Positions 30,992-34,771 of a stretch of 64,000 bases of DNA are shown in pieces. Where the stretch lies: the NCBI RefSeq assembly GCF_017743935.1, contig NZ_JAGHRE010000006.1:124001-188000 (forward strand), in the 5' to 3' direction. Every line of letters begins with the position of its first letter. The stretch's first letter is position 1. The notes beneath the pieces were generated by a model. That model was not told the origin of the DNA. It saw nothing but the letters and a program-made list of their open reading frames with translations, and did no database searches. The position numbers and the translations under genes are program-made. This stretch comes from Tropicibacter sp. R16_0. Its GTDB lineage: Bacteria > Pseudomonadota > Alphaproteobacteria > Rhodobacterales > Rhodobacteraceae.

Positions 30992-33900
30992 ATGGGGATT
31001 CGATTCTTTTCGGACCGGGACCGGCCGGTTCACATGGGATCATATCCCCTGGAGCGTCTGTCTCGGCTGACGGCTGCACCAGCCCTGTCAGATGTCCCGG
31101 CGATGCCAACGCTCAGCTTTCATCGCCCTGAACATCCCGAAAGCATCGTCAACGCGATGGGAGAGTTCCAGGCGATGATGGACGCGATCCGGGATGGGTT
31201 CGTCAACGCTGCGCAATCCGACATTCCAGATGACCCGCAGGAACGATCCAACCACCTCAAGGCGTTTGGCTATTACAATGATGCGTCGATGGTTGGGGTT
31301 GGAAGGTTGACGGCCGACACAATCCTTGAGGTGCCGCGCCGAAACCCCGACATCGACCGGCTGGCCCATGCACTCAAGACGCGCCAGACCAAAACTTTTG
31401 CCTCGGGCATCGACATGATCATGGCCGATCTCAAGGAAAGCATCGAGGCGCCGGTGACGCCCGTGGATGGGCACAAGAACGCGATCGTCTTCCTGTATGA
31501 GCACACCCGCGACCCGCGTCCGGACGAACCGGGCAGCGAGTGGATTCTGGATGCACAGGATCATCGCGCCTGTCTGCGTGGAACCGAAACAGCGGTGGTG
31601 ATTGCAAACTACATCCGACTGCTGGGTTACGATGCACGGGCCCACACCCTGACGACAAGTGAGGTTGATCTGGGTCGGCTTGCGGTTGCCGCCGGTTTGG
31701 TGAGCGCCGAGCAGGGGGCCTTGGTGGCGCCTTGGTTGGGCAGGCGATTTGGATTGGCCGCAATCACGACCGAGATGGATCTTGCGCCCGATCAACCCTT
31801 GGCGCCGATGTCGCAGCAACCCTGGTTCAAGACCCAAGGTCCAGCCTGGTGGCTTGGTAAAGGGTTTGCAAAATCCGCACTCAACCGAGACCCATTTGCG
31901 CGGCGAAACTATGTTGATGGCGGGCATCCGTTCGAACGGCTCAAGCGGGTGGACAAGCCTACGACCTATATTGATGAAGCCAATGTCGCGCGCGTGCCAA
32001 AGAGGGCAGACATGTTTGCCCGTTCGTTGTTTGGCGACATGGGCAAAGGCAACCAAGAAGCTGCGCGTGGTGGCCATTACGTCCGAAAGTCCGCACCCAG
32101 CTTTGCACAGCGACGCGCCCTTGGCGCCTTTGTCCTGCTGCAGGATGGCGATGCCAACCCGCACGGCACGCGGCCCACGCAGGAACAGCGCAACGCAGAC
32201 AACCTCAAGGCGGCGAGCTATTTTCTGGGTGTCGATGCGGTCGGCACCAGCCGTTGCCCCGAATGGAGTTGGTACAGCCACGACGCCGCAGGCCAGCCGA
32301 TCGTGCCTACGCATGACCATGCGGTAAGCATGATCATCGACCAAGGCTTTGAAACGATGGAAGGCGCAAGCGGCGATGACTGGATCGCCGTCAGTCAGTC
32401 GATGCGCGCTTACTTGCGGTTCTCTTTGTTGGGCGGTGTGATCGCGCAACAAATCCGCAACCTGGGCTATAAGGCCAAGGCACATACCGTGATGGATGGC
32501 GAGGTGTTGCAGCCACCGCTTTTGCTGCTGGCAGGGTTGGGAGAGGTCAGCCGGATCGGTGAGGTCATTTTGAACCCTTATCTGGGCCCGCGCCTGAAAT
32601 CCGGGGCGGTCACCACCGATATGCCGATGGCGCATGACAAACCGATCGACTTTGGGCTGCAGAACTTTTGCAACTCGTGCAACAAATGTGCGCGGGAATG
32701 CCCATCGGGGGCGATCACCGCAGGTCCCAAGCTGATGTTCAATGGCTATGAGATCTGGAAGTCCGACAGCCAGAAATGCACCACTTATCGCATCACTCAA
32801 CAGGGCGGCGCGATGTGCGGGCGCTGTATGAAAACCTGTCCTTGGAACCTGGAAGGGCTGTTTTCACAAGCACCGTTCCGGTGGGCGGCAACGAACATTC
32901 CGTCCTCGGCCCCGATGCTGGCCAAGCTGGACGATGCGGTTGGCAATGGCGGTCTCAATGAGGTCAAGAAATGGTGGTGGGACGTCGAACTGGATGAAAG
33001 CGGCGGGTATCGGCAGGCCAAGCATCCGGTGAACCGCCGTGATCTGCAGCTTGATCTGGACCTGAAGTATGAGGATCAGACGCTTGCGGTCTATCCCGCG
33101 CCGTTGGCTCCGCCGCCGTATCCGTATCCTTTCCCGATGGATCGCGAGGCGGGGATCGCGGCCTATGAGGCAATGATCTCGGCTGAGGAATACCAAGATC
33201 GGCTGTCGCGCGGCGACATGTCGATGGTGCATCGCTATACCAATGACGGTGATGCACCGGTGATCCAGGTGTCGATCAGCAAAGTCGATCAGATGACCGC
33301 CGATGTGACCAAGTATGAGTTTTCGACGCTGGACGGATCACCTCTGCCCGAATGGACGGCAGGGGCGCATCTGGACATCGTTGTGGCACCTGAGTTCCTG
33401 CGCCAATATTCGATGTCCGGCAATCCGGCCGAGACGGGGACCTATCAAATCGGCGTTCTGCGCGAGGATGAAGGGAGGGGCGGTTCGGCGTTGCTGCATC
33501 GGATTTTTACCGAAGGGCGCAAGGTTTTCATCTCGAAGCCGATCAACCATTTCGAATTGGATGAGACCGCCAGCAAGACCTTTCTGATGGGCGGTGGCAT
33601 TGGCATCACACCCATGATTGCCTTTGCGCACAGGCTGCACGCCTTGTGCGCAGATTTTGAGCTGCATTATTCAGCCAGCCGCAAGGACGGGGCCGGGTAT
33701 CTGGATGATCTGGCCACCATGCCTTGGGCGGATCGGGTATCTTTGCACTTCTCCGATCAGGGAACGCGCGCGGATCTGGATCAGGTGTTGTCTGGGTATC
33801 AGCCTGGCTGGCATGTCTACACCTGCGGCCCCGATCGCTATATGGATGGCGTGATGCAGGCCGCAGAACGTCAGGGTTTTCCGGAAGAGGCGCGGCATCT

Positions 33901-34207
33901 GGAGTATTTCAGTGTTCCGGAACAGCCAGACTATGAGAACCATCCCTTCAAACTGGTACTTGCGCGATCCGGCCGCGTGCTGGATGTGCCCGCCGACAAG
34001 ACGGCGGCGGATGTCATGGTCGAAAATGGGTTGCCGGTGGACATCAAATGCTCGGACGGGATTTGCGGCGTGTGCAAATGCGGGTTGATCTCGGGAGAGG
34101 TGGAGCACCGCGACTTTGTCTTGTCGAACAAGCAGCGCGAAACGGCGATCATCACCTGTCAATCACGCGCGGCGGACCCCGATGGGATCATCGAAATCGA
34201 CGCGTGA
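30992..34207 (+). CDS. Self-sufficient cobalamin-dependent reductive dehalogenase fused to an FMN/[2Fe-2S] reductase
   Basis: A 1071-residue cytoplasmic protein without a Tat signal. Residues 1-700 are a catabolic RdhA unit of the NpRdhA/BhbA type: the B12 domain, then two [4Fe-4S] clusters from C560, C563, C566, C570 and C596, C609, C612, C616. Residues about 750-1071 are a phthalate-dioxygenase-reductase-like module: FMN site RQYSMSG, NAD(P)H motif GGGIGITPM, and a C-terminal plant-type [2Fe-2S] ferredoxin with C1020, C1025, C1028 and C1056. Y474, K536 and R600 have the same spacing as the NpRdhA active-site Tyr426, Lys488 and Arg552 (numbers recalled). Such enzymes remove bromine or chlorine from phenolic aromatics using NAD(P)H and tolerate oxygen. 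No membrane anchor gene (rdhB) or dedicated transporter is nearby. GGGGAGGG precedes the start. Confidence 0.92.
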   Translation: MGIRFFSDRDRPVHMGSYPLERLSRLTAAPALSDVPAMPTLSFHRPEHPESIVNAMGEFQAMMDAIRDGFVNAAQSDIPDDPQERSNHLKAFGYYNDASMVGVGRLTADTILEVPRRNPDIDRLAHALKTRQTKTFASGIDMIMADLKESIEAPVTPVDGHKNAIVFLYEHTRDPRPDEPGSEWILDAQDHRACLRGTETAVVIANYIRLLGYDARAHTLTTSEVDLGRLAVAAGLVSAEQGALVAPWLGRRFGLAAITTEMDLAPDQPLAPMSQQPWFKTQGPAWWLGKGFAKSALNRDPFARRNYVDGGHPFERLKRVDKPTTYIDEANVARVPKRADMFARSLFGDMGKGNQEAARGGHYVRKSAPSFAQRRALGAFVLLQDGDANPHGTRPTQEQRNADNLKAASYFLGVDAVGTSRCPEWSWYSHDAAGQPIVPTHDHAVSMIIDQGFETMEGASGDDWIAVSQSMRAYLRFSLLGGVIAQQIRNLGYKAKAHTVMDGEVLQPPLLLLAGLGEVSRIGEVILNPYLGPRLKSGAVTTDMPMAHDKPIDFGLQNFCNSCNKCARECPSGAITAGPKLMFNGYEIWKSDSQKCTTYRITQQGGAMCGRCMKTCPWNLEGLFSQAPFRWAATNIPSSAPMLAKLDDAVGNGGLNEVKKWWWDVELDESGGYRQAKHPVNRRDLQLDLDLKYEDQTLAVYPAPLAPPPYPYPFPMDREAGIAAYEAMISAEEYQDRLSRGDMSMVHRYTNDGDAPVIQVSISKVDQMTADVTKYEFSTLDGSPLPEWTAGAHLDIVVAPEFLRQYSMSGNPAETGTYQIGVLREDEGRGGSALLHRIFTEGRKVFISKPINHFELDETASKTFLMGGGIGITPMIAFAHRLHALCADFELHYSASRKDGAGYLDDLATMPWADRVSLHFSDQGTRADLDQVLSGYQPGWHVYTCGPDRYMDGVMQAAERQGFPEEARHLEYFSVPEQPDYENHPFKLVLARSGRVLDVPADKTAADVMVENGLPVDIKCSDGICGVCKCGLISGEVEHRDFVLSNKQRETAIITCQSRAADPDGIIEIDA

Positions 34208-34255
34208 AATGAAAGAGCGCGAATACCCCGCGACCGACGGCAATCTTCGACGCAG

Positions 34256-34672
34256 CTAACCCAGATTAGGAACCTGATTGGAATGCGCCCGTTGCATCCC
34301 CATCATCAGGCTCTGGCCAATACGCCGCGCCATCAAGTCGAAGAGGTCAGCCTTGGCGGGCGACAAAACCTCATGGGCTGTTGTTTCGAACAGGTTCAGC
34401 CAGACGTCGAAATGGTTCGGTGTGATCTCGGGCATGGCCAGATGAGTTTGCATCGGGTTGCCCTGATAGGCCCGGTCGCGCAGCATGACATTGGCCCAGA
34501 AATCTTCGATCTTCGCAAGGTGAATGGCCCAGACTGCATCGTCTTCACCGATGTGATGGTGAAAGATCGGGCCAATGGTCTCGTTAGCACGGACGCGCGT
34601 GTAGAATTCGGCCAATAAAGCCTGAATATCTGCCCGCGTGATGTCGGCCTTGGGGGATCTGTCCATGTTCAT
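34256..34672 (-). CDS. Group III truncated haemoglobin
   Basis: A 138-residue globin of the trHbIII group: FYTRVRANETIGPIF, then the distal region WAIHLAKIEDFWANVML, and the proximal-histidine stretch NHFDVWLNLFETTA. Group III globins bind oxygen or nitric oxide and are thought to protect against or sense these gases. ATG 34672 has AAGG upstream. Its 3' end faces the dehalogenase gene, 48 bp away. A protective role beside an oxygen-sensitive corrinoid/Fe-S enzyme is speculative. Confidence 0.88.
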   Translation of the reverse strand: MNMDRSPKADITRADIQALLAEFYTRVRANETIGPIFHHHIGEDDAVWAIHLAKIEDFWANVMLRDRAYQGNPMQTHLAMPEITPNHFDVWLNLFETTAHEVLSPAKADLFDLMARRIGQSLMMGMQRAHSNQVPNLG

Positions 34673-34771
34673 GTGGCGCACCTTGGTTCTTATCGGTTCC
34701 TGACTTGCTTTCAGTCATGGCGCAATGCGGGATTTTGACCCGGGCTAGGTGCGATCCATGAGCAAAAAACG

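Follow-up and report, generated by a model that had tools for sequence, protein, structure and literature searches.

We identified an intact reductive dehalogenase gene, rdhA, in a 64,000-nucleotide stretch of the genome of Tropicibacter sp. R16_0 (contig NZ_JAGHRE010000006.1, positions 124,001 to 188,000). This whole stretch is referred to as the window, and its numbering is used throughout. The open reading frame (ORF; 30992-34207, forward strand) starts with ATG, encodes 1071 amino acids with no internal stop and ends with TGA. We conclude, with a probability of about 0.8, that its product (RdhA) belongs to the self-sufficient catabolic reductive dehalogenases, acts in the cytoplasm and works by the mechanism proposed below. 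Somewhat less firmly, we favor bromo-4-hydroxybenzoates as its main natural substrate.

The protein matches the NCBIfam ‘reductive dehalogenase’ family TIGR02486 with 206.6 bits (cut-off 160.35). A Pfam scan reported 4Fe-4S and 2Fe-2S domains and did not report PF13486. The top PDB matches (phmmer) are three sequences of NpRdhA from Nitratireductor pacificus (E ~1e-158, over residues ~160-730 and a separate N-terminal piece), followed by two self-sufficient P450 enzymes, matched through the reductase part, and then by 2PIA, a phthalate dioxygenase reductase. From residue 2 onward the N-terminus can be aligned with NpRdhA, and a simple pattern search found no RR.F motif for twin-arginine translocation (TAT) in the first 80 residues. 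On its sequence, the protein is a TAT-less RdhA fused to a flavin/[2Fe-2S] module of this reductase type (phthalate dioxygenase reductase, PDOR), and it has every sequence-level trait of the self-sufficient catabolic RdhA group for which we tested. The traits of respiratory RdhAB systems are absent, as neither the RR.F pattern nor an anchor gene (rdhB) among six scanned neighboring genes was found. The features of the gene are as follows.

30992-34207, forward strand: rdhA, predicted self-sufficient catabolic reductive dehalogenase, 1071 amino acids (intact ORF; TIGR02486 above cut-off; NpRdhA as top PDB matches)
31190-31798, forward strand: N-terminal copy of the B12-binding fold, residues ~67-269, probably vestigial by analogy with NpRdhA (short-RdhA alignment; NpRdhA structures)
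31319-31468, forward strand: insert, residues ~110-159, missing in NpRdhA and present in all eight fused rows printed, BhbA included
31991-32977, forward strand: predicted catalytic core for B12 and two [4Fe-4S] clusters, residues ~334-662 (TIGR02486, PDB, fold and short-RdhA matches)
32411-32413, forward strand: Tyr474, proposed proton donor (NpRdhA Y426; alignment)
32597-32599, forward strand: Lys536 (NpRdhA K488; alignment)
32669-32701, forward strand: first [4Fe-4S] motif, C560/C563/C566/C570 (sequence and alignment)
32777-32839, forward strand: second [4Fe-4S] motif, C596/C609/C612/C616, enclosing Arg600 (NpRdhA R552; codon 32789-32791)
33260-34192, forward strand: PDOR-like module with flavin and NAD(P)H domains, residues ~757-1067 (2PIA over 758-1067, E 3e-54; reductase folds)
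33965-34171, forward strand: [2Fe-2S] ferredoxin domain (Fer2), residues 992-1060 (PF00111, 36.8 bits, cut-off 21)

A sequence-only reading of the window had described a dehalogenase with B12 and two [4Fe-4S] clusters fused to its own reductase, and the TIGR02486, NpRdhA, 2PIA and Fer2 matches agree with it. The same reading placed Tyr474, Lys536 and Arg600 at the spacing of the NpRdhA catalytic set; the alignment to Y426, K488 and R552 has a constant offset of 48, as claimed. Structures of NpRdhA have Y426, K488, R552 and S422 surrounding the substrate (PMC7565698), and the window RdhA retains all four. We compared 116 aligned sequences, of which 115 are fused (the window RdhA included) and some represent the same genome twice via two collections. 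In all 115 fused rows the residues aligned with NpRdhA F291, S422, M423, Y426, K488 and R552 are invariant, and all 116 rows have the eight [4Fe-4S] cysteines. The [2Fe-2S] cysteines (C1020, C1025, C1028 and C1056 in the window RdhA) are present in 115 of the 116, the one exception being gapped.

The dehalogenase part is 43% identical to NpRdhA (PDB 4RAS, 6ZXU) over 669 columns and has the same catalytic set, but NpRdhA lacks both the fused reductase and the insert at residues ~110-159. An insert specific to RdhA-PDOR fusions has been described for JtRdhA of Jhaorihella thermophila (PMC10463259). The genome encodes a second, short RdhA, which aligns twice to the window RdhA, weakly over residues 67-269 (E 9e-6) and better over 334-662 (E 6e-23). 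This double alignment fits a duplicated B12-binding fold with a first copy that may be vestigial, as has been described for NpRdhA (PMC10463259). An AlphaFold2 model (37 sequences) had a mean predicted local distance difference test (pLDDT) score of 72.7 and a predicted template-modeling (pTM) score of 0.72, and Foldseek placed 14 NpRdhA chains first (6zxx_A, target-normalised TM-score 0.85, 38% identity) and reductases after them. The pLDDT falls below 50 at places within the active-site region (453-468 and 532-534), around the second [4Fe-4S] motif (588-615) and in the loops that carry the [2Fe-2S] cluster; we therefore took no geometry from the model.

The closest characterized enzyme in kind is JtRdhA, which we compared through its published description. 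Like the window RdhA, it is marine, TAT-less and an RdhA-PDOR fusion, and both have the conserved Y426/K488/R552 set and an insert relative to NpRdhA (PMC10463259). JtRdhA acts on ortho-bromo and iodo phenols in an NADPH-dependent manner, with tight coupling also in air, and its electrons have been proposed to flow from NADPH through flavin mononucleotide (FMN), [2Fe-2S] and [4Fe-4S] to cobalamin (PMC10463259). By analogy, the window RdhA is expected to share its NADPH-driven debromination and deiodination. We infer that the window RdhA binds a corrinoid and a flavin, likewise infer its activity, halogen preference and substrate, and propose the following mechanism. On the model of NpRdhA and JtRdhA, NADPH would reduce the FMN of the C-terminal module, and electrons would move singly via [2Fe-2S] and then both [4Fe-4S] clusters to cobalamin in its base-off state. 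The cobalt, once reduced, would remove the halogen from an ortho-brominated (or iodinated) 4-hydroxyphenyl substrate, with Tyr474, tuned by Lys536, donating a proton and Arg600 and Ser470 binding the phenolate. The 3-bromo- and 3,5-dibromo-4-hydroxybenzoates would yield 4-hydroxybenzoate, which PobA may convert to protocatechuate; genes at other sites in the genome would supply the enzymes that cleave its ring. Given that this enzyme type has already been expressed and characterized as JtRdhA, the gene by itself is unsurprising.

Evidence on the substrate comes from related genomes. We compared 85 loci (80 retained of 291 from genome contigs and five plasmid loci, some with short flanks). Only one, the Tropicibacter locus L006, has the globin, glpR and glpD neighbors of the window, and it carries an extra 2.2 kb between rdhA and the globin gene. 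This segment (L006:13332-15463) encodes 4-hydroxybenzoate 3-monooxygenase, PobA, which scores 657 bits with TIGR02360 (cut-off 538.7), together with a regulator of the AraC type. The same gene order was found in a further Tropicibacter genome, G073 (L135:5158-7298), whose PobA scores 657.8 bits with TIGR02360, whose regulator matches HTH_18 and whose pobA lies 243 bp from rdhA in convergent orientation. Between these two sisters the PobA proteins are 84% and the regulators 73% identical. The G073 genome has a single PobA copy, beside rdhA (search with the window-genome PobA, E 1e-60), and the L006 genome has a 43%-identical homologue ~72 kb away in addition to the copy beside rdhA.

The window genome encodes PobA on another contig (C36; 693.3 bits, cut-off 538.7), unlinked to rdhA. 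A query with this protein at E 1e-60 found only the C36 copy, which is 60% identical to the L006 PobA. The genome also encodes a protocatechuate 3,4-dioxygenase beta homologue (367.6 bits, cut-off 296.4). The rdhA tree alone does not settle the branching order of the window, L006 and G073. GlpD identities (window-L006 89.9%, window-G073 85.8%, L006-G073 83.6%) place the window genome closer to L006 than to G073, so that, by parsimony, the pobA/regulator pair was probably lost in the window lineage.

Adjacency of the two genes extends beyond the genus. Across the 73 genomes common to the listed rdhA matches (150 rows, 149 genomes) and the listed pobA matches (the best 150 rows of 261 matching genomes), pobA lies within 500 bp of rdhA in three and within 15 kb in five, against 0.02 and 0.55 expected for random placement in 4 Mb. 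It directly follows rdhA on the same strand in two other genera (G370, 19 bp; G227, 93 bp) and diverges from it at 362 bp in G197; G073 falls outside this sample, its pobA row not being among the matches listed. In the 85 loci, whose organisms overlap the linkage sample, a pobA homologue is present within the fetched flank in five (BhbA, Nitratireductor OM-1, L081, L075 and L006) and ligAB-like genes in four (BhbA, OM-1, L073 and L080). The BhbA gene and the OM-1 rdhA sit amid genes for 4-hydroxybenzoate and protocatechuate metabolism. The linkage in the sisters and in other genera suggests that the substrate is probably 3-bromo- or 3,5-dibromo-4-hydroxybenzoate and not simple bromophenols. 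The highest rates of JtRdhA were with 3,5-dibromo-4-hydroxybenzoate, the fastest, and 3-bromo-4-hydroxyphenylacetate (PMC10463259). We found no publication on rdhA-pobA linkage in a literature search judged by titles and abstract starts, which is no proof against earlier print.

Several observations weigh against this interpretation. No ring-catabolism gene was found among the six scanned neighbors of rdhA in the window, and in 68 of the 73 listed genomes rdhA and pobA are separated by more than 15 kb or lie on different contigs (drafts can hide linkage). The distance cut-offs were chosen after the data had been seen, and relatedness was left uncorrected. The pocket for the second halogen differs from that of NpRdhA: position A419 is Val in 113 and position N452 Val in 112 of the 115 fused rows, the window RdhA among them in both cases, and BhbA and OM-1 have Ser and Ala there. 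NpRdhA K307, which in one pose forms a salt bridge at the pocket entrance with the carboxylate of 3-bromo-4-hydroxybenzoate (PMC7565698), corresponds to Ala in the window RdhA and in 101 of the 115 fused rows. The best NCBIfam match of the L006 and G073 regulators is HpaA, the 4-hydroxyphenylacetate regulator, at 156-158 bits (below the cut-off of 274.65), which makes bromo-4-hydroxyphenylacetate a possible substrate as well. Finally, a CoxM/CoxL-like molybdenum-hydroxylase set, named by reading, lies near rdhA in 23 of the 85 loci (Ruegeria-type, for example L008, L009 and L010). Together with a LysR gene in such loci, this context possibly reflects another substrate route or clade synteny.

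The strongest alternative is an enzyme of the same type with simple bromophenols or iodophenols as natural substrates, detoxified rather than eaten. The lack of a ring-catabolism gene among the six scanned neighbors and the two Val residues in the pocket, where NpRdhA has Ala and Asn, would suit it. JtRdhA also deiodinates 2,4,6-triiodophenol at 66% of its top rate and debrominates tetrabromobisphenol A (PMC10463259). However, 2,6-dibromophenol reached just 6.8% of the top rate (PMC10463259), rdhA adjoins pobA in several genera, and the second RdhA of this genome bears the cluster motifs of a published 2,6-dibromophenol debrominase. We consider this alternative unlikely, though it deserves more weight than the two that follow.

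The sequence-only reading had named a ‘brominated or chlorinated phenolic’ as substrate. Its brominated part is supported by the pobA linkage and by JtRdhA; its chlorinated part is weak. NpRdhA, unlike JtRdhA, is said to reduce chlorinated compounds (PMC10463259), which would favor chlorinated phenols or hydroxybenzoates, but NpRdhA has no reductase module and, in the part that the two proteins share, just 43% identity. No chlorinated compound tested was a substrate of JtRdhA, which was inhibited by chlorinated analogues (PMC10463259). Chlorinated substrates are therefore very improbable for the window RdhA. Least credible of all is a homologue turned to a different corrinoid-dependent reduction, for example of a non-halogenated substrate near the Ruegeria molybdenum-hydroxylase-like genes: the absence of a partner gene common across clades would allow it, but six positions singled out in NpRdhA and JtRdhA as catalytic or in contact with the substrate do not vary in any fused row.

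Genes related to the window rdhA are common in the family. We confirmed 291 related stretches among genome contigs, the nearest being that of Tropicibacter sp. Alg240-R139 (93%). An rdhA match at E <=1e-20 was found in 236 of 394 sampled family genomes, a count that would include short paralogues. The best match was printed with E=0 in at least 149 of the 394, with at least 95% query coverage in 144 of the 149 E=0 genomes listed (by reading the rows). In PLSDB, eight of 1047 matching plasmid records have at least 80% query coverage, among them pBHB, the plasmid of Comamonas sp. 7D-2 that encodes BhbA (WP_015585978). BhbA is 49.7% identical to the window RdhA over 100% of the query and equals it in length, domain order and catalytic residues. 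It differs in its Ser/Ala pocket positions (Val/Val in the window RdhA), and its gene is surrounded by bromoxynil/protocatechuate genes, the plasmid being classed as conjugative.

Phylogenetic analysis covered 54 of the 116 rows, without JtRdhA; the long branch of NpRdhA makes the root uncertain. BhbA and OM-1 are outermost, followed by Aminobacter and then by a mostly marine clade. The comparison with NpRdhA and BhbA proposed in the sequence-only reading thus puts the window RdhA, with its Tropicibacter sister, inside the marine clade and BhbA outside it. Ruegeria sp. HKCCD8929 has two full-length fused rdhA genes in one assembly (L009, L047), located in different parts of the tree. Fused rdhA genes ~70-71% identical were also found in two metagenome-assembled genomes labelled Granulosicoccaceae (Gammaproteobacteria; L062, L076), and these copies may represent either gene transfer or mis-binning. 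Putative bhbA homologues are widespread in roseobacters according to a 2026 paper (PMC13101508). The fused type is already known and common in the family; the likely substrate is what we add.

In the window, rdhA is flanked on one side by a glpR-like/glpD pair in divergent orientation and on the other by a globin gene convergent with it, beyond which are two amino-acid-oxidase-like genes for flavin adenine dinucleotide (FAD) proteins and a MerR-like regulator gene. These six neighbors (DeoR/GlpR-like, GlpD, globin, the two FAD proteins and MerR-like) were those scanned, and the family matches of the DeoR/GlpR-like, both amino-acid-oxidase-like and the MerR-like proteins are all below cut-offs. 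Two flanking features are relevant here.

34208-34255, no strand: 48-bp gap, the site of pobA and the AraC-type regulator (~2.2 kb) in both sisters (locus comparison)
34256-34681, reverse strand: bacterial-type globin gene, a convergent flank common to both sister genomes, with no known role in dehalogenation (PF01152, 22.0 bits, cut-off 21)

None of the six neighbors is a transporter, anchor or B12-uptake gene, in line with the sequence-only reading. That reading had also spoken of a roseobacter replicon, which the data show as far as a 344-kb contig in a 37-contig draft; a search of the whole genome for RepC (PF03428), a marker of plasmid origins, gave no match. A CobN match above cut-off, as sole marker, suggests an endogenous cobalamin pathway.

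Clustering of neighbors in 80 loci and the window (L007, L046, L053 and L072 were left out, the motif being absent from their called ORFs) revealed no partner gene common across clades, and conserved neighbors were clade-specific. In Ruegeria-type loci the molybdenum-hydroxylase-like set is mostly just downstream of rdhA, and a like LysR gene diverging from rdhA was noted by reading in 22 of the 85 loci. A fumarylacetoacetate-hydrolase-like gene is near rdhA in nine of the 85, the listed ones mostly Shimia. A MarR-family regulator gene adjoins rdhA in L078, L089 and L090 (lineages Roseibium, Aminobacter and Jannaschia), and L078 and L089 also have a binding-protein gene of a tripartite ATP-independent periplasmic (TRAP) transporter nearby. 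Aldehyde dehydrogenase genes lie upstream of rdhA in OM-1 (just upstream) and in G370, where an apparently N-terminally shortened member of the family precedes rdhA and then pobA. In genome G108, rdhA is immediately preceded, in the same orientation, by a branched-chain-amino-acid-type ATP-binding cassette (ABC) transporter operon, recognized by reading (L136:10979-15920). The binding protein of the operon has no NCBIfam match at E 1e-20, and genes for PobA and protocatechuate 3,4-dioxygenase beta are near the rdhA/ABC region.

The short RdhA is encoded on contig C37 (L124:10032-11201; 389 amino acids from ATG) and is unfused. It matches TIGR02486 (174.5 bits, cut-off 160.35) and PF13486 (at 174-269 of a scanned stretch that left out the ATG). 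It carries the exact Fe-S motifs printed for Ros_A3X954 of Roseobacter sp. MED193, CDICTKCADACP and CAICMRVCP (PMC13101508), and the Pfam ranges agree, with numbering equal or off by one depending on the start codon. Ros_A3X954 is a TAT-less roseobacter debrominase that, unlike the window RdhA, is apparently short and unfused (PMC13101508). We considered it as a counterpart of the window RdhA and rejected this, as its motifs, Pfam range and implied mass fit the short paralogue; the mass of ~50 kDa is our own arithmetic from the published kinetics (kcat / specific activity; PMC13101508). The short gene adjoins a gene resembling glucose-methanol-choline (GMC)-type oxidoreductases (by reading), and a reductase-like ORF, considered as a possible electron partner, lies ~12 kb away (L125).

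Natural organobromines are abundant in the sea. With an oxygen-tolerant, one-gene debrominase in over a third of its sampled genomes, this major marine family could be an important sink for them. The pobA linkage sharpens a vague guess at the substrate into a testable path from bromo-4-hydroxybenzoate through 4-hydroxybenzoate to protocatechuate. We tentatively suggest, at less than even odds, that in roseobacters the fused RdhA opens a widespread marine route for recycling brominated 4-hydroxybenzoates of natural origin (and perhaps the corresponding benzaldehydes) via PobA to protocatechuate. The rdhA-pobA adjacency would have been repeatedly made and broken, because a self-sufficient enzyme works wherever it lands, and the window lineage, having lost pobA and its regulator, would use its unlinked, 60%-identical PobA and have a second, short debrominase at another site. 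Marine bacteria have been reported to turn 4-hydroxybenzoate into 2,4-dibromophenol, a plausible natural source of organobromine (PMC10579414); our literature search on Bmp5 returned unrelated matches only, mostly to bone protein. If the proposed recycling is true, it would be the catabolic mirror of this bacterial route.

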